Source of the DNA: Patescibacteria group bacterium
GTDB lineage: Bacteria > Patescibacteriota > Patescibacteriia > 2-12-FULL-60-25
Length of the DNA stretch: 35,576 nt
NCBI GenBank assembly: GCA_018061755.1
Contig: JAGOTP010000012.1
Span: 1-35,576 of the forward strand
Direction of reading: 5' to 3'
Part shown: in pieces, positions 550 to 13,339 of the stretch
Position numbering within the stretch: the stretch's first letter is position 1
Layout: every line of letters starts with the position of its first letter
Notes under the pieces: model-generated
Database searches by the model: none
The model's input: only the letters and a program-made list of their open reading frames with translations
Told to the model about the DNA's origin: nothing
Translations under genes and position numbers: made by a program

Positions 550-2328
550 TCAGGGGTCGAAGCACAGCCCGTTGGCACGGGCCGCCTGCATGTCGTCGGG
601 CGGCACTGCGTTGACGAAGCAGCGTCGGATGCAGGCGGGGCGATCACCGCCGCGAGGATCACGCGGGCAGTCGATGGTGCCGCTGGAGGACGGGCCCACG
701 CCGCGATCGCGCATGGTGCGGGCGACCTCGTCCTTGGTCGTGCTGAGCCAGGGAATGGTCTGCAGCACCGCGACGAGCCCGGAGATGAGGAGCATCCCCG
801 TGATCCCCACACCGATCGGCACCGCGAACCAGCGCAGGTACTTGTTGTCGGTCGCCTTGAGCCACGTCGAGATCGACGGGGCGATGTGTTTGAGGGCCAC
901 GTAGGCGAAGCCCGCGACGATGGCGGCCAGCGCGAGCCAGCCGATGATCCCGATGTTGAACAGGGCGCTGAAGAAGTTCCCCGTGCCCGTCACGGCCGGC
1001 TCGGTCGTGTCGGCGATGGTCTCGCCCGTGGCGACGATGGTCGGGGTGGGGTCGGGGTAGGGCGGACCGAGGGGGCCCTTGGTCCACAGCCAGTCGGGCT
1101 GGGGGGTGTAGTCGGGCGTAGCGTCACGGCCCGCGATGCCGTAGTGGACGTATGGGAAGGTCGTGATGCTCGAGATGGCCTGGAACACGAGCAGCCTCTT
1201 CAGGCGGTGCTCCAGGACACTCGACAGAGCAGCGATCAGACCTTCGGACACGAAGAGCAGGAAGATCGACGTGCCCATCGCCCAGGTCGAAACGTTCGTG
1301 AGGGCATACTGCCAGCCGAGCCACGAAGCGAGCAGCCACTTGATGATGAGCATGCCCATGATCCGTGTGCCCCTGTAGTAGAAGATGGCGAACCAGGGAA
1401 CGTCGTCATCGCCGCGCGCCTTCGCATCTGCGGCCTCCTGCTTGAGGACGTCGTTGTAGTCGGGGCCGGGCAGCACACCCGCCGTGACCGCCCGCCGTGC
1501 GAAGATCCAGAAGCCCTCGCCCTTAATGAGCGGGACGACTCCGATTCCCCACAGGTGGATCAAGATGACCATCGGGAGCCCGAAGAGGAGCGCCGAGAGC
1601 GGCCAGATCCACTGGATGTAGTGACGCGCCATGACGAGCGGAATGCGACCGTCAGTGTGTGCGCGCAGGATGGCGATGAAGGTCGCGACACCTGCCCCGA
1701 TGAGGAGCAGATGGAAGATCGTGATGAGCTTGGCCCCACTGCGATTGTTCGCCCCGCAGCGGCGGATGAACCCGTCGTAGGCCGCCTGACGGAGCTTCTC
1801 CTCGTCTTCAGCGTCCTTGAGGTCCGCCTGGATGAAGCTCGGATCGTGCTTGCGCTTCAGAGCCTTGAGACGCGCGACCTCACGGATCGCCGCGTCCAGA
1901 GGCTCTCGGAAATCGGCGTGGTCACGCCGAGACCCCTCCATGACCGGGAGCGCGTAGAGCCACCCCACGAAGAAGGCTGCGAGGAAACCACCGACGGCCG
2001 CCCAGTCGTAGCTGTCGAAGACCTTGTAGATCTTGCCGAGGATGACGAGGAAGGCGAACACGAAGGTGCAGAACCATCCCCAACGACGTGCTCGAGCGAC
2101 CCCATCATGGCGATCGCCGAACTTGACGTCATCGACGGTGGCTTCGACGGTCTGCTTGATACCTGCCAGACCACCGAATTGGACGCGGGCGTAGTTTGCG
2201 ACAGCCGCGAGGCTGCCGAGGGTGAGGACCTGGGAAAGGATTTCTCCCAGAACATCGCCACCAGGGGGTTTTTTGGGCGCGGACGGCGGCGTGCCACCTG
2301 CAGCCGGGGTTGTAGCCGGAGCAGCCAT
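550..2328 (-). CDS. GC-rich polytopic membrane protein, unknown function (592 aa)
   Basis: I do not recognise the family. The protein begins with a Pro/Ala-rich segment (1-25) and has about eight hydrophobic helices (near 83-101, 109-130, 199-221, 238-266, 322-344, 347-368, 456-479, 500-524). A charged Lys/Glu-rich cytoplasmic-type stretch lies at 140-185 and a Pro/Thr-rich loop at 400-450. The C-terminal tail holds four cysteines in its last 40 residues, which suggests a disulfide-bearing exposed end. The ATG is preceded by a strong AGGAGG. It lies 102 bases downstream of the next GC-rich gene in the same direction, so the two are probably co-transcribed. Third codon positions are strongly GC-biased, unlike the core genes. 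A long plus-strand frame (886-2415) over the same DNA is a GC shadow. Confidence 0.8.
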   Translation of the reverse strand: MAAPATTPAAGGTPPSAPKKPPGGDVLGEILSQVLTLGSLAAVANYARVQFGGLAGIKQTVEATVDDVKFGDRHDGVARARRWGWFCTFVFAFLVILGKIYKVFDSYDWAAVGGFLAAFFVGWLYALPVMEGSRRDHADFREPLDAAIREVARLKALKRKHDPSFIQADLKDAEDEEKLRQAAYDGFIRRCGANNRSGAKLITIFHLLLIGAGVATFIAILRAHTDGRIPLVMARHYIQWIWPLSALLFGLPMVILIHLWGIGVVPLIKGEGFWIFARRAVTAGVLPGPDYNDVLKQEAADAKARGDDDVPWFAIFYYRGTRIMGMLIIKWLLASWLGWQYALTNVSTWAMGTSIFLLFVSEGLIAALSSVLEHRLKRLLVFQAISSITTFPYVHYGIAGRDATPDYTPQPDWLWTKGPLGPPYPDPTPTIVATGETIADTTEPAVTGTGNFFSALFNIGIIGWLALAAIVAGFAYVALKHIAPSISTWLKATDNKYLRWFAVPIGVGITGMLLISGLVAVLQTIPWLSTTKDEVARTMRDRGVGPSSSGTIDCPRDPRGGDRPACIRRCFVNAVPPDDMQAARANGLCFDP

Positions 2329-2358
2329 CGATGTACCTCCTCCCGTTTTTCAGGGAGA

Positions 2359-2386
2359 CCGCGCCAGACGTTCCCGTCTGGCGCGG
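2359..2386 (-). promoter_or_regulatory. Intercistronic hairpin between the two GC-rich genes
   Basis: A perfect 12-bp stem (CCGCGCCAGACG and its complement, 4-base loop) lies just upstream of the SD of the 592-aa gene. It has no clean T-run after it, so it may stabilise or partly insulate the downstream message and not end it. A (GT)n-like tract adjoins it at 2387-2410. Confidence 0.5.
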
Positions 2387-2430
2387 GTTGTGTGTGTGTG
2401 CTTGGTGTGTGTTGATGAAATTGTTGAAGT

Positions 2431-3633
2431 TCAGGAGACGAGCCACTTGGCCACGAACCGACAGGCGCGCCAGGCGACCCAGACCGGGCCCCAGATGGGA
2501 ATCAAGGGCCACTTGATCCGAGGCCAGACGGTGCGCCCGTAGAGCGAGATCACACCCTCCGATACGCCATGCTCGTGGGCACGCTGGCGACGGATGGCGC
2601 TCGGATCGACCAGACGATCTCCCGTGTCCCCTGCTTCGGCTTTCTCGACGCCGTCAGGGTCCTTCTTCTCCTCGGCTTTAGCAGCGGGCTGCGCCTCCTT
2701 GAGACGGTTTTCGGCAGCTGTCGCCAGCGCGAGCAGCGCATCCGTACGGATCGTGATTTTCCTTGGAGCGTCACGCGGAGCCCGAGGGTCATCGATGAGG
2801 TCGTCCGGCAGACCCAGGATCCGCATGGTCTCACCGGAAGGGAGAAGACCGTGCGCACTCGCCCTGATGATGGCGGTCGCCGCTTTCGGGTGAGTACCTT
2901 GGAGCTCCTTGAGAGCCGTTCTTTTCCCTCGAAGTTTCAGTTGAGCGACCGGATCATCCTTCGCCTTTTCCTCCGCTTCGTCGAATGCAGCGAAGATGTC
3001 CATCTCCCTGCCCATCCCTTCGATGTGTGATGTGTCCTTGGTGGTTTTGACGGTGTCTTTTGCTCCGGCAGTGTCAGTTCCGGAAGCGTTCTTTTTGTCA
3101 CCATCACGCGCGGGCAGAAGCTTCTCCGCCGTGTCATAGATGGCCGGCTCGATGGCCTGTCGTCGGTCTTCGATCGTCAGCGAAGCGCCCTCTCGTTTGC
3201 GCTCAGCTGATTTCGCCGAGATCTTCTTGCCGACCTCTTCGAGCCAGTACTGCGCTCGCGAGATGGTTCCCTCAATCAGTCCTTCGTAGCCAGCGTTAAC
3301 TGCAACACCAGCCGCATTCGACCAGACATTGAGGAGACGGGTAGGGATGTTGATCCGATACTGCGTTTCGCGCAGCACGAGCCGCATCGCCTTGAGCACG
3401 AACGGGGCTACTTCCCATGACTTGTAGTTGAAACCCGCCTTGCCGAGGAGGGGCACAACATAGCGGTGAGACAGACCCAGCACGAGGGCGCCCAGCAGAG
3501 CAGGAACATTCCCGCTCACTGCGTCCGTTACCTCCCCCTCGAGCGCCCAGGCCGCCAGGCGGCCGACCGCAGCGCGGATAGGCGTACCAGCGAACCTGAG
3601 GATCATATCCTCCGTGAGTGTTGAATCAGCCAT
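2431..3633 (-). CDS. GC-rich helical protein with amphipathic C-terminus, unknown (400 aa)
   Basis: I do not recognise the family. No signal peptide is visible. The N-terminal 110 residues are mildly hydrophobic with one candidate membrane segment (near 43-62). The middle (140-330) is highly charged, Lys/Glu/Asp/Ala-rich and probably helical or coiled. The last 30 residues are Trp- and Arg-rich with prolines (WPRIKWPLIPIWGPVW), typical of an amphipathic membrane-associated helix. The ATG has an upstream AAGGAGG at about 12 bases. It is the first gene of a likely two-gene unit with the 592-aa membrane protein, so the pair may form one membrane complex. Promoter candidate: TTGACA on the minus strand near 3882-3887, without a convincing -10. 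Confidence 0.75.
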   Translation of the reverse strand: MADSTLTEDMILRFAGTPIRAAVGRLAAWALEGEVTDAVSGNVPALLGALVLGLSHRYVVPLLGKAGFNYKSWEVAPFVLKAMRLVLRETQYRINIPTRLLNVWSNAAGVAVNAGYEGLIEGTISRAQYWLEEVGKKISAKSAERKREGASLTIEDRRQAIEPAIYDTAEKLLPARDGDKKNASGTDTAGAKDTVKTTKDTSHIEGMGREMDIFAAFDEAEEKAKDDPVAQLKLRGKRTALKELQGTHPKAATAIIRASAHGLLPSGETMRILGLPDDLIDDPRAPRDAPRKITIRTDALLALATAAENRLKEAQPAAKAEEKKDPDGVEKAEAGDTGDRLVDPSAIRRQRAHEHGVSEGVISLYGRTVWPRIKWPLIPIWGPVWVAWRACRFVAKWLVS

Positions 3634-4025: not shown

Positions 4026-4430
4026 TTAAGCGGCGGCCAACGTGGCCAACTGACGGATAACGAAGTTTGAAATGGCGAAACCAGCTACGATGATCACCAT
4101 ACCGATGACGGCATTTTTGATCATGTCGCGAGCTTCATCCGTTTGCTTGGTGTTGCCACCAGCTGTCATCCACTTGAAACCGGCCCACAAGACGTAGAAC
4201 AACAAGATGATACCGAGGAAACCGAGCACGACGTTGATGATGCGACCGATGATGGTTTCGAGACGGGCTGGAGCACCGGATGTCCCGATGGCGGCCTGCT
4301 GAATACCACCAGCACCTGTAATCGAGTCCTCAGCGCGACGGAATGGATCCGTCTGGGCAGAGGCGAGCAACGGGGCGAATGCCAAAGCACCGACCGCGAT
4401 CGAAGTAACAATTCGCTTGATCTGAATCAT
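4026..4430 (-). CDS. T4SS-pilin-like protein, minimal form (134 aa)
   Basis: A small secreted/membrane protein of the two-helix type IV secretion pilin-like family (TrbC/VirB2-like; I believe Pfam T4SS_pilin). The start at MIQIKR gives a normal signal peptide ending LLASA before QTDPF. A longer frame to 4493 would bury it. Mature residues hold a short hydrophilic part, then helix 1 (GRIINVVLGFLGIILLFYVLW), the loop GGNTKQTDEAR and helix 2 (IGMVIIVAGFAISNFVI). There are no cysteines. It is the last gene of the locus and shares the core with five upstream paralogues. No SD precedes the ATG. It could be a structural pilin subunit; no secretion ATPase is in the window to confirm a machine. Confidence 0.85.
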   Translation of the reverse strand: MIQIKRIVTSIAVGALAFAPLLASAQTDPFRRAEDSITGAGGIQQAAIGTSGAPARLETIIGRIINVVLGFLGIILLFYVLWAGFKWMTAGGNTKQTDEARDMIKNAVIGMVIIVAGFAISNFVIRQLATLAAA

Positions 4431-4510
4431 AGAAAGGATAAGTGAAAGACCTGAGTTGTGGGAGGTCGAGAACAATGATAGCGCATTTTCCAACAGATTT
4501 CATCCACACC

Positions 4511-5428
4511 TTACAAAGGACAAGCAGGAGCCGTCCCCATCGTACAGACAACTTCGCGACAATGCGTACGCTGACCAGCCGCGTCCGCCTCACTCAAGAT
4601 ACGACCACCGACATAGATTGAATCGGTTGGCGTACAGATTGAGCGAGCGGCACAGTCACGTACACATGAGTCACACACACCAACTGGACGAGGCTCAGCA
4701 CCCAAGGCCGTGCAGTAAGCAGCAAGCGTGAAGCGCGCTGGCGTCGGTCCTGCTGTGGCACCTGGCGTACACTGCGACTGACCAGGCGCTGGACGTGGAC
4801 GCGGTGGATCACCCGATGGCGCACAGATACGTGAACCACAGGCCGTCAAACAAGCATCTTCTGTGACGGGCGCTCGCAGACCGAAGGCCGTTGGGGTCCG
4901 CTGACAATCGTTGACACACGAGATGGTCGGAGTTGCATCGGCATAACAACACGGACGAGTCGCCCCATCCATGAGCTCATCAACGGTCGGGCCACCCGCC
5001 GTACCGCTATCCGAACCACCCGTCGTTCCGTTGATCCCAGCTGAGATTTGGCCTAGCTGCGTCAACACGAAACTTGAAATAGCAAAGGAACAGGCAATGA
5101 TTACGACTCCGATAACCGCGTTACGAATAATGCCTTGCGCTTGATCAACATCTTTCGAGCCACTAGCCGTCATCCAAGTAAAGCCGCCGTAGAGCACGTA
5201 GCCCAAGAGGACGATACCGATGAAGCCGAACAAGATGTTGAGCGCACGACCGACCATCGTTGCGATACACTGACTCGCTCCTCCCGCACAGGCAGTCGAC
5301 AATCCAGCCGACCGACCGGTCGCACTTAAGCCGGTCGTGGCGTCGGTCACACGTGCTGACGCCAAGGCGGGCACGAGCAACACAACACACGACACAGGCA
5401 AGATCCATCGAAGGAGAGAAGAACGCAT
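4511..5428 (-). CDS. T4SS-pilin-like protein with cysteine-rich C-terminal tail (305 aa)
   Basis: Signal peptide (1-25, ending ALASA), a short Ser/Gly region with two cysteines, then the pilin-like core: helix 1 around 59-83 (GRALNILFGFIGIVLLGYVLY), a Lys/Asp loop (SGSKDVDQAQ), helix 2 around 102-121. A long secreted-type tail of about 170 residues follows. It has cysteine pairs such as RPCCYA and CDSCVRDC and a Pro/Arg-rich linker. The CxxCxxxC module resembles modules in the two largest proteins of the locus. It lies 20 bases downstream of the 131-aa pilin-like gene without an SD, so it is probably co-transcribed. Its tail would be extracytoplasmic if the topology matches the paralogues. 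Confidence 0.82.
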   Translation of the reverse strand: MRSSLLRWILPVSCVVLLVPALASARVTDATTGLSATGRSAGLSTACAGGASQCIATMVGRALNILFGFIGIVLLGYVLYGGFTWMTASGSKDVDQAQGIIRNAVIGVVIIACSFAISSFVLTQLGQISAGINGTTGGSDSGTAGGPTVDELMDGATRPCCYADATPTISCVNDCQRTPTAFGLRAPVTEDACLTACGSRICAPSGDPPRPRPAPGQSQCTPGATAGPTPARFTLAAYCTALGAEPRPVGVCDSCVRDCAARSICTPTDSIYVGGRILSEADAAGQRTHCREVVCTMGTAPACPL

Positions 5429-5448
5429 ACGCGGGAGGGAAGAGTTCG

Positions 5449-5844
5449 CTATTCGCTAGTAGTTGCTTTGAATACGTTACTGATCACATAAGTCGTGATC
5501 GCCCAAGCTGACAAGATAATCGCCAGACCAATAATACCCGAAATGATGTATTTGCGAGCTTCGTCGGTTTTCTCGGTGCTACCACCGGAAACCATGTACT
5601 TAAAGCCCCCCATCAATACGATCACTACTGAAATAATTCCCAGGAAACCGAGCGCGACGTTGATGATACGACCGGCGGTAGAACGCGGGTCGCCTCCATT
5701 CAAATTCGTTTCTCGGCCTACAGCGTTGACGCCAAAGGGATCCGAGGTAAGGTCGCTACTCTGCGCTAATACGGGAAGAGCCGTACAAGCAGCGAGCGTA
5801 AGCGAAGCGGCGAAACTGACGACATACTTCATACGTTTCGTCAT
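5449..5844 (-). CDS. T4SS-pilin-like protein, probable major subunit (131 aa)
   Basis: Small pilin-like protein: signal peptide with an LAAC near position 20 and a more likely signal peptidase I site after LPVLA, then a Ser/Asp/Asn-rich segment and the two-helix core (GRIINVALGFLGIISVVIVL, loop GGSTEKTDEAR, second helix IIGLAIILSAWAITTYVI). It is the only gene of the locus with a strong SD (AAGGAGGTGAGG, about 8 bases before ATG). It also has its own extended -10 promoter and a stem-loop at the predicted 5' end of its mRNA. These signals suggest the highest expression in the locus, as expected for a major fibre subunit. That role is inferred. Confidence 0.85.
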   Translation of the reverse strand: MTKRMKYVVSFAASLTLAACTALPVLAQSSDLTSDPFGVNAVGRETNLNGGDPRSTAGRIINVALGFLGIISVVIVLMGGFKYMVSGGSTEKTDEARKYIISGIIGLAIILSAWAITTYVISNVFKATTSE

Positions 5845-5889
5845 GCTGCCTCACCTCCTTTCCAGTTCAAACGTTGTGACATAGAGCTC

Positions 5890-5913
5890 GGCTTCTCATG
5901 AGAATGAAAAGCC
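5890..5913 (-). promoter_or_regulatory. 5'-end stem-loop in pilin-like mRNA leader
   Basis: On the minus strand GGCTT-T-TCAT pairs with ATGA-G-AAGCC around the loop TCTC. The predicted transcription start (near 5913) places this hairpin at the extreme 5' end, where such structures can protect an mRNA from decay. Confidence 0.5.
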
Positions 5914-5919
5914 AGTGAG

Positions 5920-5928
5920 AGTATACCA
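5920..5928 (-). promoter_or_regulatory. Extended -10 promoter of the 131-aa pilin-like gene
   Basis: The minus strand reads TGG-TATACT, an extended -10 with 5/6 core match. No good -35 is visible at 17 bases, which suits an extended -10 promoter. Predicted start near 5913. Confidence 0.6.
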
Positions 5929-5941
5929 CGAAATGATTTTT

Positions 5942-8023
5942 TTAACGTGTTGATACGGTGCGACAGTAACCGCCAGATTGTGGACGACGCGTTTGCGAAG
6001 GGGCTTCAGCCGTGGCACACCAGACAACGACCTTGCCCGCCGCTTCAGAACAACCAACGCTCGCGATGGTTGCTGCCCGTGAAGGCTGTGACCAATACGT
6101 AATACAGCGTGCACATGATGGCTCCGTCGTATTGTAACCAGTAGCATCACAAACACTGGTAACGCTCGTTGGTCGTGGAGCTGCCATCGCCCGTGGGTTA
6201 CAGGCATCACGGCAACTTGTGCTCCAAAGATGAACTAAGGCGGGAATACAGCTGGCATCGATGCCTGGGTAACGACCAGTCATGCCACGAACTCCGCTCT
6301 CCAAACAACTACGGCAGGCGGCTGCCGGGTCAGGCAATTCTGGACTCGGGGCAGGAAAACTGGTTCCCCAAGTCGTCACCAATCCGCCTAAGTCGCTCAC
6401 CCCACGCGGACAAGTACCGCCCACGGCCGTACAATTTGCAGGGTCTGCACCATAGAAGCTGCGGCAAGCGGCTCCTGGCGAACCTGGTTCGGGCAGTGGA
6501 ATAGCTCCGCTGCCCCCCGAAGGGCTTGATCCTTGAGAGGAACGTCCGGTTGCTTGTGTCGTCCCACCCGGGCGCAGCGCTGATGGATCTTCGTCTCGGA
6601 CGTTAAGCGATGTATCAGGTTCTGCAATGTCTCCGGTTTGAAGCTGATCAGAGACTTGAACGATCAAGGACACACCAATGTAGGCAAAGAGCACGATCAC
6701 GAGACCGATCACCGCATTTACAATCGCCTTACGACCCGTGTCGACCTGCTTCGGATTGCCGCCCGAAGTCAGGTACAACAATCCACCGTAGACAAAGACG
6801 CCCAAGAAAAAGACGCCACACAGACCAACCAAGATACGAATGATGCTGCCGATGATTTCTTGAATCGTTAAACGACCTTCGAATGGGTCTGGGAAGTTAA
6901 CACGGAGCGTTGGGGCCGTACGAGAAGGTGAAGATGGTCGATTGGTTGCGGTATTTCCGGTAGTCGGCGGCGTTACGTTGCCTGGCGTGCCAGCCGCACC
7001 ACCCGTCCCGTTACAAGTCGGCGCTGGCGTCGAGGCACAGGTTGCACCCAGCTCTCCACAGTAGGCGTTACAGCGGTTGGTACACAGTGTGGTCGCGGCC
7101 GTAAGCGAAGCATCGTTCGAAAAACTACAGACGGTCGCGCGATCATCGCGAACTTGCGGCGTTGGTTGTGGCGAACAAGAATAGCGGCAGGTTCCGGAAG
7201 CGCCGCTGCCGCTGCATTGGACTGAATCGGTATTGCAGCGCATGCCGCGTGCCCCACAGGTTGCTTGGCAACCGTTCAGACACCGTTCCGTACTGACAGC
7301 CGGCGCACCGTTTGGCGTACAGGTTCCGGCCTGTGCGTCATTTACCGCCGTGCGGCTACAGGTAATAACACAGCGAGCGTTGGCATCGGTTCCATCTGTC
7401 GAAATACACTCCGGTGCGCGGCTACTGATCGCAAGGTTTACGCCCGCACAAGTTGAAGCAGACAACGCACCAGCACACTCGGAAGGCGAGGATTGTGTAC
7501 AACGGCGATCCGTTCGTACGGTGCGCTCGGTTCCCAAGTTACAGGCATATTGGCAAAATCCCGTTGAGCCACTGGCTGCACGTTGTGGCACCAGACATTC
7601 TGGCCCAGGCGTTGTGCGGCAGCCGATACTTTGCACTCCCGCTGGACGCGCATAAGCGGCACATGTGTTGTTACAGCTCGTGGTACAAACACCCGCATCT
7701 GATCCTTCGCAAGTTAACGCAACCTGTGGCGTACAGCTACAGGGGGAGCAAGAACGTGGTGTGGACGTACCACAAATACTTGGACGGCTATTATCGACGA
7801 CCGCTCGAACCGTTGTTCCAAGCTGACTACAGACCGTGGCACAAAAACGCGTACATTCAACGTCTGAGGTACAGGATGATAAGGAACCAGTCAGTGGTGG
7901 CGGGATTAAATTGACCTGACAGGCAAAGCTGCAGGCGTTCGCCAGAACCGAAGGCGCGATCAGAAAGGAGACGACGAACGCGATACTAGCCACAAAGGAC
8001 GCCCACAAAGAACGGACAGACAT
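5942..8023 (-). CDS. Large cysteine-rich surface protein with T4SS-pilin-like core (693 aa)
   Basis: Signal peptide 1-29 (ending VLANA). Residues 31-340 hold about 38 cysteines, starting with the module CSFACQV and then CTSDVECTRFCATVC. A Thr/Pro/Ser-rich linker spans 340-380. The pilin-like core is at about 385-462 (IGSIIRILVGLCGVFFLGVF, loop GGNPKQVDTGRK, second helix). A C-terminal tail of about 230 residues adds some 14 more cysteines, including CRSCLESG and SCARCITYW. The N-terminal module recurs in the next two upstream genes, so these are paralogues. The protein is probably membrane-anchored with large disulfide-bonded ectodomains on both sides of the helical hairpin. It has its own near-leaderless promoter. 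Function unknown; adhesin or fibre component is plausible. Confidence 0.82.
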   Translation of the reverse strand: MSVRSLWASFVASIAFVVSFLIAPSVLANACSFACQVNLIPPPLTGSLSSCTSDVECTRFCATVCSQLGTTVRAVVDNSRPSICGTSTPRSCSPCSCTPQVALTCEGSDAGVCTTSCNNTCAAYARPAGVQSIGCRTTPGPECLVPQRAASGSTGFCQYACNLGTERTVRTDRRCTQSSPSECAGALSASTCAGVNLAISSRAPECISTDGTDANARCVITCSRTAVNDAQAGTCTPNGAPAVSTERCLNGCQATCGARGMRCNTDSVQCSGSGASGTCRYSCSPQPTPQVRDDRATVCSFSNDASLTAATTLCTNRCNAYCGELGATCASTPAPTCNGTGGAAGTPGNVTPPTTGNTATNRPSSPSRTAPTLRVNFPDPFEGRLTIQEIIGSIIRILVGLCGVFFLGVFVYGGLLYLTSGGNPKQVDTGRKAIVNAVIGLVIVLFAYIGVSLIVQVSDQLQTGDIAEPDTSLNVRDEDPSALRPGGTTQATGRSSQGSSPSGGSGAIPLPEPGSPGAACRSFYGADPANCTAVGGTCPRGVSDLGGLVTTWGTSFPAPSPELPDPAAACRSCLESGVRGMTGRYPGIDASCIPALVHLWSTSCRDACNPRAMAAPRPTSVTSVCDATGYNTTEPSCARCITYWSQPSRAATIASVGCSEAAGKVVVWCATAEAPSQTRRPQSGGYCRTVSTR

Positions 8024-8034
8024 AGATGACCTGT

Positions 8035-8063
8035 ATGATATACGATCACCCGCGAGTTGTCAG
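8035..8063 (-). promoter_or_regulatory. Near-leaderless promoter of the 693-aa gene
   Basis: Minus strand: CTGACA (8058-8063), 17-base spacer, TATCAT (8035-8040). Predicted start near 8028, about 5 bases before the ATG at 8023, so the mRNA has almost no leader and no SD. Confidence 0.7.
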
Positions 8064-8067
8064 TGAG

Positions 8068-8106
8068 ACAAACGCCCCTGTACCAAGACGGTACAGGGGC
8101 GTTTGT
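8068..8106. terminator. Bidirectional terminator splitting the pilin-like locus
   Basis: A 17-bp perfect stem (ACAAACGCCCCTGTACC and its complement, loop AAGAC) ends with GTTTGTATTTTTG on the plus strand. On the minus strand it closes transcription from the two upstream large genes, just before the promoter of the 693-aa gene. Confidence 0.85.
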
Positions 8107-8122
8107 ATTTTTGTCTCTTGGT

Positions 8123-10435
8123 TTATGGCGTCCAAGCGCAACGGGCACTCACCGGCAGACCAGTTAACAGTCGGTTCAACTCGGTCTCAACTGTCTGACA
8201 CTCGCGAGCCGTACTGCGTCCGGTACAGGTGAAAGAACTTTCATCGAAGCGGCCGTTGGCTGGAGGCGCCTGACAAGCATTTCTAGCTTGGGCGATCTGA
8301 TCAGCAGAAGCGAATGTACTAATGATCCCTCCACCGGCTGACGGACCACAGACACAGGCTCCCTGCGGACCAGTGTCGCGCACGACGCCGCCCGCACCAG
8401 CACCCGCTCCTCCACCAGCAGGAACTCCCCCGCCTCCACCGCCCACCGGCGCAACTGGTGCTGTCGGTGGCGCTCCGGCATCTCCTGGCAAAACTGGTGC
8501 CGTATTACTCAACGGGGCACAACACAAGACTTCGGCCGGATCTCTTGGACAACCACCGACCAAACAACGCGTACGGTCACTGCGCTCAGAAGGTTGCGTC
8601 TGACGACAGGCCCAATCGCTACTCGTGCGATCAGTTGCTTCATTGCGACCAATACGTCCATGCGTAACTGCATATTCGACACAGGTCGCCAACCCGCCCG
8701 AACCGCCTGTTGTTCCAGTCGTGCCACTACTGCTCTCGCTCGAACTTCCACCAATATCCGTGACAAAACCCAAGATGACGCTGCTGATGCTGTAGGAGAA
8801 GAAAATGAGCAACATGCCGATCGTGGCGTTGCGAATGATGTGTTGAGCACCTGCAACATCCTTTGGATTACCCGCTGATAAGATCCAACGAATCCCCCCA
8901 TAGACGAACATGAGCAATGCAACGGATCCGACCACTCCCAAAATTCCTTTAATGAGACGACCGATCAAACCAGCCAGAGAATCAACGCCCGTAATGGGAT
9001 TGGTCAGACGCGTTCCACCTGTACCCGCGCTTAAAGTCTGTGAACTGCCGCCACCTGATCCACCGGACGAACCACCGTCGCCAGCTGAACCGCCACTAGA
9101 ACCGCTTCCCGAACTGCCGCCACTGCTACCCGAACCGCCAGCACCACCAGCTGCACCGCCTGGCGTAACACAGGTCGGAGCCGTTTCACAGAAATTCATC
9201 CCACCGGTGACCGTTTGCGTATATGCTGCCTGACAACTCGCGCCACAGAAACTACCACAGACGGTTGCTGGAGCCTGAGCGCCTGTTCCTTGTGGGTTAC
9301 AGGTTCGCTCTTCTTGAGACGCACCGATACTACATTCAAAGGCGCAGCGTCGAATGCCCATTGGATCAGCCGATCCACAACGCGCAGCTGCTGAACCGGA
9401 TGTGACACATTGACCGTTACGGAAAGATCGACCACAGACTTGCTGACATTGTGTTGTACATTGAGAATCTTCGGTACAAACCGTTCCCTGCGTTGAAGGT
9501 GGCGGTTTACAAGTGAAGTTACAGGTTCCTTGCTGAGCGGCTGCCCCTGATCCGCCAGATGAGCCACTACCTGAACCGGAGCCCGAACCAGAGCCGGAGC
9601 CCGAACGTGAGCGACTCGTTCCTTCGCGGGTCAGCGAAATAGGGTATCCACGCTCGAAGATGGAGCCGTAATCGCCTTCGCGACAATTAGGCTGAGGTGG
9701 TTCCGCCGTTCGACAACTGCTGTAACAATCACTACGACTGGCTAACCCAGAGTTCAAACACTGTGCCATACAGGTCACACACAGGTTGAACTGGGCATTG
9801 TCCGGGAAGGTTTGCTCGATCGTGATCCCTCGGCATTGGTTGCGCCCGCCGCTTCCGGCACATTCAGCGTGACATTGAGCACGCGTCATCGGCTCAAGTC
9901 CGCCGGTTACACACGTATTGGCACAGCGCTGACACAAGCGAAGAGACGTGGCCGAGTCCAACTCAACGCACAGCGGAATATGTCCGGCCGTTCCAGCACA
10001 AGCCATCGAGGTACCACGCACCCGAATAGCCGACGAACCTTGGGCACAGACGTTGTCACACTGATCACTACAATAAGGATGAGGTGTCGTAGCTCGAGCG
10101 GCCGACGGACCCGTACAAGCCAGGGCAGCATTTGGCGTACATAAACAGCCCTGACAACTGTTATTCTGACAGGTAATGGCCGAACTCGTATCACGCTGCA
10201 TTCCAGCCGTACGGCAGATGGTTGTACACTCACTCGCACAAGACGCAGCGGCCCCTGGGTTGGAACACTCCGTCTCCCCCTCAACTGGCTCTACCGCACA
10301 ACGGAAGGAACAACTCGATGCCGCCTGAACCGTTGAGATGTTCAGCAAAAGACCGGACGTCACCAAAAGACCCATGAGAAGACCAAACGCGAGCTTGGCC
10401 TTGTCTTGGAAAAAGCGAGAGAAGAAGCGTGACAT
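8123..10435 (-). CDS. Giant cysteine-rich surface protein with T4SS-pilin-like core (770 aa)
   Basis: Signal peptide/helix 15-38 (ending TVQAA). First cysteine-rich block about 41-250, starting SSCSFRCAV and holding about 28 cysteines. A Gly/Ser tract of alternating SG follows near 275-297. A second copy of the module (CNFTCKPP, then CTEDSQCTTQCQQVC) spans 304-425. A second Gly/Ser linker precedes the pilin-like core at 485-562 (GRLIKGILGVVGSVALLMFVY, loop GNPKDVAGAQ). The tail has the module CLVGGCPRDPAEVLCC and a Gly/Pro linker. The chosen ATG is 5 bases past the upstream stop. A TTG at 10444 overlapping that stop (TTGA) is an alternative adding three residues. It is translationally coupled to the 477-aa gene. 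Probable extracellular disulfide-rich fibre or adhesin; exact role unknown. Confidence 0.82.
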   Translation of the reverse strand: MSRFFSRFFQDKAKLAFGLLMGLLVTSGLLLNISTVQAASSCSFRCAVEPVEGETECSNPGAAASCASECTTICRTAGMQRDTSSAITCQNNSCQGCLCTPNAALACTGPSAARATTPHPYCSDQCDNVCAQGSSAIRVRGTSMACAGTAGHIPLCVELDSATSLRLCQRCANTCVTGGLEPMTRAQCHAECAGSGGRNQCRGITIEQTFPDNAQFNLCVTCMAQCLNSGLASRSDCYSSCRTAEPPQPNCREGDYGSIFERGYPISLTREGTSRSRSGSGSGSGSGSGSGSSGGSGAAAQQGTCNFTCKPPPSTQGTVCTEDSQCTTQCQQVCGRSFRNGQCVTSGSAAARCGSADPMGIRRCAFECSIGASQEERTCNPQGTGAQAPATVCGSFCGASCQAAYTQTVTGGMNFCETAPTCVTPGGAAGGAGGSGSSGGSSGSGSSGGSAGDGGSSGGSGGGSSQTLSAGTGGTRLTNPITGVDSLAGLIGRLIKGILGVVGSVALLMFVYGGIRWILSAGNPKDVAGAQHIIRNATIGMLLIFFSYSISSVILGFVTDIGGSSSESSSGTTGTTGGSGGLATCVEYAVTHGRIGRNEATDRTSSDWACRQTQPSERSDRTRCLVGGCPRDPAEVLCCAPLSNTAPVLPGDAGAPPTAPVAPVGGGGGGVPAGGGAGAGAGGVVRDTGPQGACVCGPSAGGGIISTFASADQIAQARNACQAPPANGRFDESSFTCTGRSTARECQTVETELNRLLTGLPVSARCAWTP

Positions 10436-10440
10436 AGAAC

Positions 10441-11874
10441 TCAAGCGCGAGTGAAAAGGCTGACCAAGAAATTAACTAACGTGTATCCAAAGAACATGAA
10501 AAATAATCCTATCAGCGCCTTCTTGATACGATCTTCTGCCGTTTTCACACTCGTCGCATCACCTGCGATCAAGTATTCAATTCCGGCATAGACGAAGATG
10601 ACGAGCAGTAGCACACCGGCCAGACCAAACATGAACCGCACCAAGTTCAATCCGGCTTGGATGATGTCAGAAAACTGACAAGCTCCGTCTTCGATACAAG
10701 CAGGCAAGATCAAGCGCGTCAGCCCACCTGAATCGGCACTTACGTTCGCACTACCGACACGTCCATCGCCAGATCCACCACCCGCCGATCCACCCGTCGA
10801 CTCACTACCGGAGCCACTCGATCCCTGGCCTGCCGATCCACCTTCACTCGCTCCTCCGCTCGCAGGCGTTGGAGTATCTGTACTTCCCGCCACACCTGCA
10901 CCGGTTCCACGCGCTCCACACTGCTCTCCCACTGGAATACCCAAAGCCGGCGGACAGCAACGAATGGTTGAATCACCCGGACAGCCGCCTTGAACACAGG
11001 TCGATTGCTCTTGCTCGGAACAAACACGACGACACATCCAGGTGCTCGAAGCTGCCTGCATGCTATTTTCGATGGTCGCAATGATGCTCGTGAGAGCGCT
11101 ATTGGCAGCAATCGCGCGCTGCACGCAAGCGCCCGCCGGTAAGCGAGCCGCTTCTTGCTGGCTCGCGGCCGCATTCGAAGATTGAATGCGACTGCGTCGC
11201 TCTCCTGAGCCACTCACAGCCCCGGAAGCATCGGTCGTAAGCCCAGCAATGGCTTGCTCTTGCGGCACACTGTTGCATACGGGTAATGTGTCACCCGTCG
11301 CCGCACGACGACAGGCGTTGTAACAATCAGCTGGTACAGCCCGCGTTCCCATCGATGCCGTAGTGGCTATACATTCACGGATACAGCCACGACACAGTTC
11401 AACGGTTGATTCCACACAGCGTGGCGTCAATGTCGGAACGCTTCCGGTGTAACAACCGATCGAGTTAGCTGGAGCACGTAGCGGAGACGTCGATTCGCAG
11501 TAACGGCTGCGACAGGCGTCTGTACAAGTTGCATCGCCTCCATCCGCAGGATTACAAGTAACTGGGACCTGAGGAACACAATAACAGCCATTACACATCC
11601 GCAAGTCTCTCCCCGGAACCGCGCCACAAGTCGGTCGACGGCTGTCAGGCCGCATCCCTTGGGCCTGACATTGCGACTGACAATCGTTTACACAGTCTTG
11701 ATCCGACGCACACTGACTCGTCGGTCCATTTTCTGAATAGCGAATCTGACAACGAAAACTGCAACTGCCAGCTTCCGCGTTGGGAGCTGGCAGTGCAACT
11801 AACGACAAACAACTAGCGGCGACTAACAACGTAAGGTACGTCGCGCGTTTCAAGATCCGAAAAAGAGCGCTCAT
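10441..11874 (-). CDS. Cysteine-rich surface protein with C-terminal T4SS-pilin-like core (477 aa)
   Basis: Signal peptide 1-35 (ending NAEAG). N-terminal module GSCSFRCQI then CASDQDCVNDCQSQC, followed by CNGCYCVP and LCRGCIREC...DCYNACRRA, the latter shared with the 770-aa neighbour. A second region (245-310) has WMCRRVC and the module CVQGGCPGDSTIRCC. A Gly/Ser linker (330-375) leads to the pilin-like core at 403-475, which here ends the protein (LNLVRFMFGLAGVLLLVIFVY, loop GDATSVKTAED). There is no C-terminal tail, unlike its paralogues. It starts 41 bases after the stop of the solute-binding protein gene, inside a palindrome covering its SD and ATG. Confidence 0.82.
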   Translation of the reverse strand: MSALFRILKRATYLTLLVAASCLSLVALPAPNAEAGSCSFRCQIRYSENGPTSQCASDQDCVNDCQSQCQAQGMRPDSRRPTCGAVPGRDLRMCNGCYCVPQVPVTCNPADGGDATCTDACRSRYCESTSPLRAPANSIGCYTGSVPTLTPRCVESTVELCRGCIRECIATTASMGTRAVPADCYNACRRAATGDTLPVCNSVPQEQAIAGLTTDASGAVSGSGERRSRIQSSNAAASQQEAARLPAGACVQRAIAANSALTSIIATIENSMQAASSTWMCRRVCSEQEQSTCVQGGCPGDSTIRCCPPALGIPVGEQCGARGTGAGVAGSTDTPTPASGGASEGGSAGQGSSGSGSESTGGSAGGGSGDGRVGSANVSADSGGLTRLILPACIEDGACQFSDIIQAGLNLVRFMFGLAGVLLLVIFVYAGIEYLIAGDATSVKTAEDRIKKALIGLFFMFFGYTLVNFLVSLFTRA

Positions 11875-11914: not shown

Positions 11915-13339
11915 CTACTGAATCGTCTGAGAGATACGGTTCACAGCGTTACGCATCGAGACGACCAACTGAACTTGCGGATTCAAAGCGTCGGTAATCA
12001 GCTGACCAAAGGCTTCCTCAACCGCTCGCGGATCGTTCCCTTTGTACCAAGAGATAGCAGTCAGAACTTGCGAAGCGAATACTCCAACCTGTTCATCGTC
12101 GAGTTGTGGCGCGAGCATTCCTTTACGTGCGGCTGGACGCTTGATGACATCCAACACCATTTTCGCCGCCTCTGGCTTGGTCAAATAGTTTACGAAGTGC
12201 CAAGCGACATCGGTATTCTTGGATTTTTTGGCGACTGTCCAGTTCCAGTAATTGGCGACGTTGCGCTCAGCTGTTTCAGACACTTGAGGCAGTTTCGCAA
12301 TCCCCAAATTCAACTTAGGCGCACGCGCTTTGATCACAGGTAGATCATACGAATAACCAAAGTAGAAAGCCGTCTTGCCTTGGGCAAAGGCATCCAGCGC
12401 CTCTGGCTGATTCGCATTCCAAGTGTAGGTCGCTTTATTTGGGTTGGCGAAATCGGTATAGAAAGCCAAAGCAGAATAGGCTGGTGGCTCTTCACGCACA
12501 TTCGAAAGATCTGGTGGCATCTGCTGGAAGGTTGGCTGTCCCAGTTCATTCACCATGCGTGCGCCATTTTGCACCATGAGTGCCGTCAGAATGTCCGTTG
12601 CGCGCGAAATATTGTTCGACGTTCCAAGTGCGACCGCCATCTGGGCAAAGCTCTGCCCATCAATATCAAGTTTTACGAGCTTTTCAACATTGGCCTGAAA
12701 ATCAATCCAACTGGTTGGCGGCTCCAAAATCCCACCCGCATTCAACAAATCTTTGTTGTAGTACATGGCGAGCGTATCAACCGATACTGGAATCGCCAGA
12801 ATTTTATCCTGATAATCCGGCGTCGCTCCCGGTTCAGCCGGCGCCATATTGATCCGCCGAATTGTGTCTTGCGCCACCACATCAGCGAACTGCGTGCGAT
12901 ATTCGCGTAATGTTACGGTTGGCTCTTCAACCATCGTCCAGGTTCGACTTCCGCCAAAACTGCCCGAAACCGCCACCGAACCGATTTTCACCGTCTTCGG
13001 CATCGGCTGGATTCTCGGCATGTACTTCCCCGTCCAATCATTGTGGATCAAAAAAATGTCCGGTCCACGATCATCGGCAAACCCTTCCAAGATTTTCTGT
13101 TCGTATTCCTCCAAACGCAAACGACGATAGGTAATCGTGACGTTTGGATGAGCTTTGCGATACTGGTCAATGACCGGCTGGTAAGCATCAGCATCATCAA
13201 CGACCCCCCACATCTCAAGCGAGACAGGCTTGGCAGCTTCGAGTGCATCCGGCGATGGCGCTTTACTACAACCCGCTCCCAGCAATGCCAAGAGCGAGAC
13301 AACCGTTGTAAAACGAAGAAAGAACGAAGGAGCGGACAT
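11915..13339 (-). CDS. ABC transporter extracellular solute-binding lipoprotein, family 1 (474 aa)
   Basis: Lipoprotein signal with lipobox LLGAGC (Cys24). The body matches the sugar-type solute-binding family 1: N-terminal beta-strand VSLEMWGVVDDADAYQPVIDQYRKAH, then GPDIFLIHNDW, the hinge segment LAIPVSVDTLAMYYNKDLL, and the C-terminal AWHFVNYLTKPEAAK. Length (about 450 mature) is usual. It binds a substrate, probably a sugar or oligosaccharide, at the cell surface and delivers it to an ABC permease. No permease or ATPase gene is adjacent, so it may serve a transporter elsewhere or act as a surface binding protein with the cysteine-rich proteins downstream. The 477-aa gene follows after 41 bases in the same direction. 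Confidence 0.88.
   Translation of the reverse strand: MSAPSFFLRFTTVVSLLALLGAGCSKAPSPDALEAAKPVSLEMWGVVDDADAYQPVIDQYRKAHPNVTITYRRLRLEEYEQKILEGFADDRGPDIFLIHNDWTGKYMPRIQPMPKTVKIGSVAVSGSFGGSRTWTMVEEPTVTLREYRTQFADVVAQDTIRRINMAPAEPGATPDYQDKILAIPVSVDTLAMYYNKDLLNAGGILEPPTSWIDFQANVEKLVKLDIDGQSFAQMAVALGTSNNISRATDILTALMVQNGARMVNELGQPTFQQMPPDLSNVREEPPAYSALAFYTDFANPNKATYTWNANQPEALDAFAQGKTAFYFGYSYDLPVIKARAPKLNLGIAKLPQVSETAERNVANYWNWTVAKKSKNTDVAWHFVNYLTKPEAAKMVLDVIKRPAARKGMLAPQLDDEQVGVFASQVLTAISWYKGNDPRAVEEAFGQLITDALNPQVQLVVSMRNAVNRISQTIQ

Follow-up and report, generated by a model that had tools for sequence, protein, structure and literature searches.

An array of predicted T4SS-type pilins with cysteine-rich members downstream of an orphan solute-binding lipoprotein in a relative of Candidatus Uhrbacteria

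The window analyzed here, that is, the whole stretch of DNA examined, is the entire contig C12 (35,576 bases) of a 1.15-Mb, 93%-complete genome, and dnaA, dnaN and rnpA are also located on it. The source bacterium is a relative of Ca. Uhrbacteria in the Patescibacteria (ABY1-type), and it is tiny and probably host-dependent. Six co-directional pilin genes, each encoding a two-helix core of the family PF18895 (T4SS_pilin), lie at 4026-11874 on the minus strand. The order of genes from the upstream side is a solute-binding protein (SBP) lipoprotein gene and then pilins 1, 2, 3, 4, 5 and 6. The spacing between the SBP gene and pilin 1 is about 40 bases, the stop of pilin 1 and the start of pilin 2 overlap by 4 bases, and the later gaps between the pilin genes are about 20-100 bases. 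Because these spacings are short, the SBP gene and the six pilin genes are likely to form a single transcription unit. The features are listed below.

11915 to 13339, minus strand: SBP lipoprotein (SBP_bac_1, 474 aa), first gene of the conserved unit; Pfam SBP_bac_1 E 8e-30, lipobox LGAGC
10441 to 11874, minus strand: pilin 1, 477 aa, with signal peptide, 400-aa Cys-rich ectodomain (33 Cys) and C-terminal core; PF18895 E 2.9e-8 and topology
11578 to 11712, minus strand: Cys module of pilin 1, common to pilins 2 and 3; regular-expression match, modeled as helix and strands with pLDDT about 70-87 over residues ~55-104
10456 to 10662, minus strand: core of pilin 1 (two-helix hairpin); profile at residues 405-473, model helices 401-436 and 440-476
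8123 to 10444, minus strand: pilin 2, 773 aa, 56 Cys, with N-part (44 Cys), core and C-part (12 Cys); PF18895 E 6.5e-8
10139 to 10267, minus strand: shared Cys module of pilin 2; regular-expression match
8765 to 8974, minus strand: core of pilin 2, residues 491-560
5942 to 8023, minus strand: pilin 3, 693 aa, 53 Cys, with N-part (38 Cys), core and C-part (14 Cys); PF18895 E 2.2e-9
7733 to 7873, minus strand: shared Cys module of pilin 3; regular-expression match
6653 to 6862, minus strand: core of pilin 3, residues 388-457
5449 to 5844, minus strand: pilin 4, 131 aa, small and undecorated; PF18895 E 2e-9, NF045849 E 8e-8
4511 to 5428, minus strand: pilin 5, 305 aa, 20 Cys, with core near the N-terminus and a 181-aa C-part (16 Cys); PF18895 24.3 bits in the protein scan and 28.2 in the genome scan, NF045849 E 3e-5
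4026 to 4430, minus strand: pilin 6, 134 aa from the probable ATG at 4430 (ORF 4026-4493), small and undecorated; PF18895 E 5.6e-8, NF045849 44.5 bits

Downstream of the array, at 550-3633 on the minus strand, are two ORFs encoding a multi-helix membrane protein of 592 aa and a protein of 400 aa. The G+C content of this block is 61-65%, versus about 50-57% elsewhere, and neither a Pfam match nor a homologue in the relatives examined was found for its ORFs. The block may be an island or a chimeric contig end.

The profile PF18895 matched all six pilins (E 3e-5 to 2e-9). Its curated cut-off of 26.6 bits was passed by five of the six in the protein scan and by all six in the genome scan, and pilin 6 also scored above the cut-off of 40 bits of NF045849. 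In every pilin of the window, a hydrophobic export segment at the N-terminus is followed by two more hydrophobic helices, and a hydrophobic N-terminal segment was found in 469 of 512 pilins. The loop between the two helices is short and has 2-4 basic residues in all six. A sequence-only reading of this DNA had described six T4SS-pilin-like paralogues sharing a two-helix core with a GG-N-x-K loop. The profiles bear out the family and the core for all six, but the literal loop occurs in only two; the others have AGNPK, GGSTEK, ASGSK and AGDATSVK. In the AlphaFold2 model of pilin 6, made with 48 relatives, helices were placed at residues 57-89 and 94-133 with pLDDT of about 87-96. If the signal peptide is cleaved, both ends of the core lie outside, where the Cys-rich parts sit.

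The profile of the TrbC/VirB2 pilins (PF04956) had no match in the source genome and matched 4 of 31 decorated pilins of relatives. A fold search with the pilin 6 model gave no match at E <= 0.001, a bare helix pair giving such a search little power, and the small-pilin matches that it returned were unrelated helical hairpins, which we rejected. With the 477-aa model of pilin 1 nothing significant was found, and the conjugative pilus of P. calidifontis (8dft) appeared at E 3.7. A profile search of PDB sequences gave no significant match to a solved conjugative pilus; the only matches, to repeat-designed Pizza6 proteins, were rejected as an artefact because they consisted of six 19-residue pieces, none of them significant by itself (i-E about 600 for each piece). 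A plasmid search with pilin 6 gave no match. The assignment of the cores as T4SS-type pilins is supported at the level of sequence.

Cys-rich extensions are attached to the cores of pilins 1, 2, 3 and 5, which agrees with the four proteins with extracellular parts of the earlier reading, and the three giants, to which it had ascribed about 32 to 56 Cys each, were counted to have 33, 56 and 53. The Cys content was 4.4-6.0% in the extensions, 0.06% in the cores and 0.84% in other ORFs, and the enrichment in the extensions is therefore not due to chance. We then considered whether the number of Cys is even, using extensions with at least 4 Cys from a set that was redundancy-reduced by removing cores of more than 70% identity. 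The number was even in 68 of 84 N-extensions and in 53 of 57 C-extensions, versus 195 of 321 (61%) non-pilin control ORFs (p = 6e-5 and 3e-8, respectively, against the control baseline, related sequences being not fully independent). The partition of Cys between core and extension and this even parity bear out the disulfide-rich ectodomains that had been proposed. In addition, the module C..C-x3-C-x3-C..C..C-x2-C-x-C is present in pilins 1, 2 and 3, with 0.04 matches expected in shuffles across the set. A search of the genome for Dsb-type genes found a VKOR gene on contig C3, a gene for a DsbD-like protein on contig C24, and, on contig C6, a DsbA-like gene that immediately precedes the gene for an 810-aa pilin (L016:9016-12150). 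The disulfide chemistry of the extensions is supported by several independent lines of evidence. The Cys-rich parts of the pilin 1 model are mostly of low confidence. A defensin-like (CS-alpha-beta) reading of residues 55-104 of pilin 1, suggested by its Cys pattern and by the order of helix and strands, found no fold support and is kept as a lead only. The source genome has other Cys-rich exported proteins, since a predicted lipoprotein of 440 aa with 25 Cys on contig C7 (56407-57729, minus strand; L013) has no pilin-profile match.

The array is part of a larger set, as ten PF18895 genes are present in the source genome. On contig C7 (20605-30783; L012:605-10783) is a protein of 3,392 aa and 167 Cys with a pilin core at residues 52-121, and the core is followed by TIG, Big_5 and Big_7 domains and Cys-rich repeats of the TIGR02232/DUF4215 type. 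A 641-aa pilin with Big_5 domains adjoins it, and the family as well as other families of the class keep this pair between hisS-yqeY and ftsA-ftsZ. The 810-aa pilin on contig C6 has a C39-peptidase-like domain; in its C-terminal half a pattern HG...GHS was noted, which is hydrolase-like by eye. On contig C24, a 534-aa pilin lies downstream of a PD40 propeller gene.

PF18895 was found in 57 of 57 relatives of the class, usually in 6-13 copies per genome, and these genomes commonly include one PF18895 frame of about 2,400-4,100 aa. In the phylum it was found in 139 of 143 genomes, and outside the class most frames were short among the matches listed. Across the class, cores are joined to disulfide-rich modules, to Ig/TIG domains or to domains resembling enzymes, in proteins that reach about 4,000 aa (4,046 aa) and about 190 Cys. 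The arrays, of six genes in the window, reach eleven in relatives, with the conserved order of SBP lipoprotein, decorated pilins and then small pilins. When 38 arrays of five or more genes were counted, extensions with at least 4 Cys were present in 53, 61 and 45% of the genes at positions 1, 2 and 3, versus 0-13% at positions 4-8. In a Magasanikbacteria relative, a pilin is fused to an SLT transglycosylase domain (L176:1603-3027), and a VirB1-like activity of this protein is possible. A frame combining DUF559 and a pilin (L130:10440-11615) is probably mis-extended or chimeric and was excluded from the evidence.

The array and the SBP gene occurred together in 73 of 80 named loci, and five of the seven loci without pilins end within 400 bases of the SBP gene. 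Counterparts of the window SBP in the class share 33-53% identity with it. The named relatives in which it was found are Ca. Uhrbacteria, Falkowbacteria and Magasanikbacteria, all of them members of the class ABY1. ABC permeases of the BPD type (PF00528, BPD_transp_1), with which such SBPs pair, were found neither in the source genome nor in 17 of 19 relatives, so that 18 of the 20 genomes tested had none, and the same search was positive in 14 of 14 well-known genomes used as control. Because no PF00528 permease was found, ABC import of this type by the window SBP is unlikely. From the synteny, we infer that the SBP may function together with the pilins.

The sequence-only reading had also stated that no T4SS ATPase is present nearby. 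This is true for the window but misleading for the genome, in which the PF19044 profile detected VirB4 at C9:38874 and C13:32484; PF03135, tried as another VirB4 probe, had no match there. Since the window is one whole contig, the lack of a nearby ATPase reflects the limits of the locus and of the contig: virB4 lies on another contig than the array, and the window stops at the contig end. At the array loci of relatives that were examined, no VirB4 was found within about 10 kb. The source VirB4 scored 315.8 bits with the CD1110 family (cut-off 325) on the part before the contig end, and its orthologue in the relative G040 scored 352 bits, above the cut-off. The T4SS core genes on C9/C13 encode a VirB6-like candidate, PrgI, a TrsD-like protein and VirB4. 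PrgI/VirB3 near virB4 was matched at E 3e-10; the TrsD-like protein, also near virB4, had a weaker TrsD/VirB4-N match (E 2e-10 to 2e-4, under the cut-offs). The VirB6-like candidate (1,133 aa) has no family match and was assigned by its position in the T4SS operon and its similarity to L081/L082. In G040, genes for PrgI, TrsD, VirB4, two ORFs, PD40 and a Cys-rich pilin are contiguous on one strand. Moreover, VirB4 was present in all 36 pilin-bearing genomes tested, and a VirB4-grade match was lacking in three of the four PF18895-negative genomes; one genome lacking both belongs to a genus in which the other two members tested carry PF18895 and VirB4 alike. The link of the pilins to a T4SS is supported by several independent lines of evidence.

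Some further observations were made at these loci. On C9 (L075:11782-18028), an insert of about 6 kb absent from relatives lies between the trsD-like gene and virB4. The virB4 gene reaches the end of C9, and the ends of C9 and C13 overlap at 94% identity over 614 bases, which may reflect strain variants or misassembly. In G041/G048, the giant Cys-rich ORFs that immediately precede the VirB6-like gene were ruled out as pilins, having CBM_4_9 domains and no pilin core; giant Cys-rich CBM_4_9 proteins lie just upstream of the VirB6-like gene at L082:9877-17784 (2,635 aa) and L083:6952-15642 (2,896 aa).

We propose that the locus is a VirB2-like pilin array of a Patescibacteria T4SS, part of which is decorated in this class. 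Each pilin would be inserted as a hairpin whose basic loop faces inward and whose two ends lie outside, and VKOR and DsbA may oxidize the ectodomains. VirB4, VirB6 and PrgI would polymerize the small pilins into the shaft of a pilus, and the decorated pilins would join it at the base, side or tip as minor subunits whose ectodomains, adhesive or lytic, would face a host cell or another surface. We give this explanation a probability of about 0.55. Incorporation of the decorated pilins is a presumption about a pilus that is itself predicted here from its genes. Sister pilins bear adhesin-like domains (TIG, Big_5, Big_7 and Cys-rich repeats), and attachment to host cells is plausible from such domain types. 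The orphan SBP lipoprotein might be an accessory ligand-binding or assembly factor rather than a part of ABC import. A bolder form of the proposal, to which we give distinctly less weight, is that the subunits of a single filament provide its shaft, adhesins and lytic enzymes together, through disulfide-armoured, Ig-like or enzymatic ectodomains of up to about 4,000 residues, and that the SBP has been freed from ABC transport to act as a ligand sensor or assembly factor.

A real rival, and the main one, is a membrane-anchored coat. That is, the decorated core would be an anchor only, holding a disulfide-rich coat or adhesin layer that never enters a pilus, and the small paralogues would be the sole true pilins. 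Ectodomains of up to 4,046 aa look hard to polymerize, and a core flanked on either side by bulky parts could be difficult to pack helically; the decorated genes on C7, C24 and C6 lie a long way from the T4SS operon, and the Ig/TIG domains of the giant pilins are typical of surface adhesins. However, the decorated cores share the family signature of the small pilins, both kinds alternate within one co-directional array, and the T4SS gene run of G040 includes a decorated pilin. We consider this rival a serious one, though it is the less probable reading.

It is also conceivable that the array is a source of pilins that vary antigenically or by host, whose Cys-rich parts have diversified to fit different host strains and play no structural part. 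This has been suggested in print for VirB2 arrays (PMC12102498), and the low identity among the array members and the many copies per genome are in line with it. In contrast, decoration is concentrated at positions 1-3 across families and Cys parity is kept, and these two features therefore indicate retained roles. We think this explanation unlikely.

Slightly less likely still is an apparatus for DNA import like the archaeal Ced/Ted systems, in which the decorated pilins would capture DNA or a surface and not a host. A comF-type gene, named from a look at its sequence and from the literature, adjoins virB4 (L076/L080/L081), competence and recombination genes have been reported near ABY1 T4SS (PMC12102498), and CedA1/TedC are two-helix pilins that share with the present system a VirB4-like motor and the absence of outer-membrane parts (PMC9905601). 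However, VirB4 scored far higher with CD1110-type conjugation ATPases than with CedB, DNA import needs no Ig/TIG or enzyme domains, and no sequence match to CedA1/TedC was found in our analysis. To our knowledge, CedA1/TedC carry no large ectodomains. Finally, that the cores belong to an unrelated two-helix membrane family with a superficial T4SS-pilin likeness is very improbable: the lack of a significant structural match to a known conjugative pilus would allow it, but the matches to PF18895, NF045849 and PF04956 and the co-occurrence with VirB4 argue against it.

The proposed decorated pilus can be compared with known systems. Classical VirB2/TraA pilins are small and undecorated. Like the TrbC/VirB2 pilins (PF04956), the present proteins have a signal peptide and two hydrophobic helices. 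They also resemble the small two-helix pilin-like Mbov_0395 family of Mycoplasma ICEs (NF045849), above whose cut-off pilin 6 lies, but the decorated members fall below it and carry ectodomains. PF18895/VirB2 arrays of 2-11 genes have been reported in 383 Patescibacteria assemblies, in which many pilin genes lie away from virB4 (PMC12102498), and these arrays have been reviewed (PMC12857230). The T4SS pilin array of the epibiont Ca. Southlakia epibionticum is essential for its epibiotic growth (PMC10633639, PMC12857230). The present array is like these in its tandem divergent PF18895 pilins and in the VirB4/PrgI/TrsD-type T4SS of the genome (PMC12102498, PMC10633639). It is unlike the published Patescibacteria arrays in the Cys-rich, Ig-like or enzyme-like ectodomains on many members, in its place downstream of an orphan SBP lipoprotein, and in the giant pilins at other loci. 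The texts of PMC12102498 and PMC10633639 make no mention of Cys-rich or giant pilins, and searches of the open-access literature found no other report of them.

The special surface family suggested by the earlier reading is accordingly known in one part, the PF18895 arrays of Patescibacteria, and its decoration is the part for which we found no published description. The same is true for the class-wide occurrence of decorated pilins, for the position of the array downstream of a conserved SBP lipoprotein although the permease is mostly absent, for the decoration mainly in the first three array genes, and for the disulfide-forming genes (VKOR, DsbA-like) alongside decorated pilins.

In the sole genetic system tested for Patescibacteria, the T4SS pilins are essential (PMC10633639). 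The decorated pilins found across the class are concrete candidates for the surface with which these bacteria make contact with other cells, and an orphan SBP lipoprotein was not an expected companion of such an array. If the decorated subunits do enter the pilus, the resulting conjugation-type filament would be of a kind that has yet to be described.
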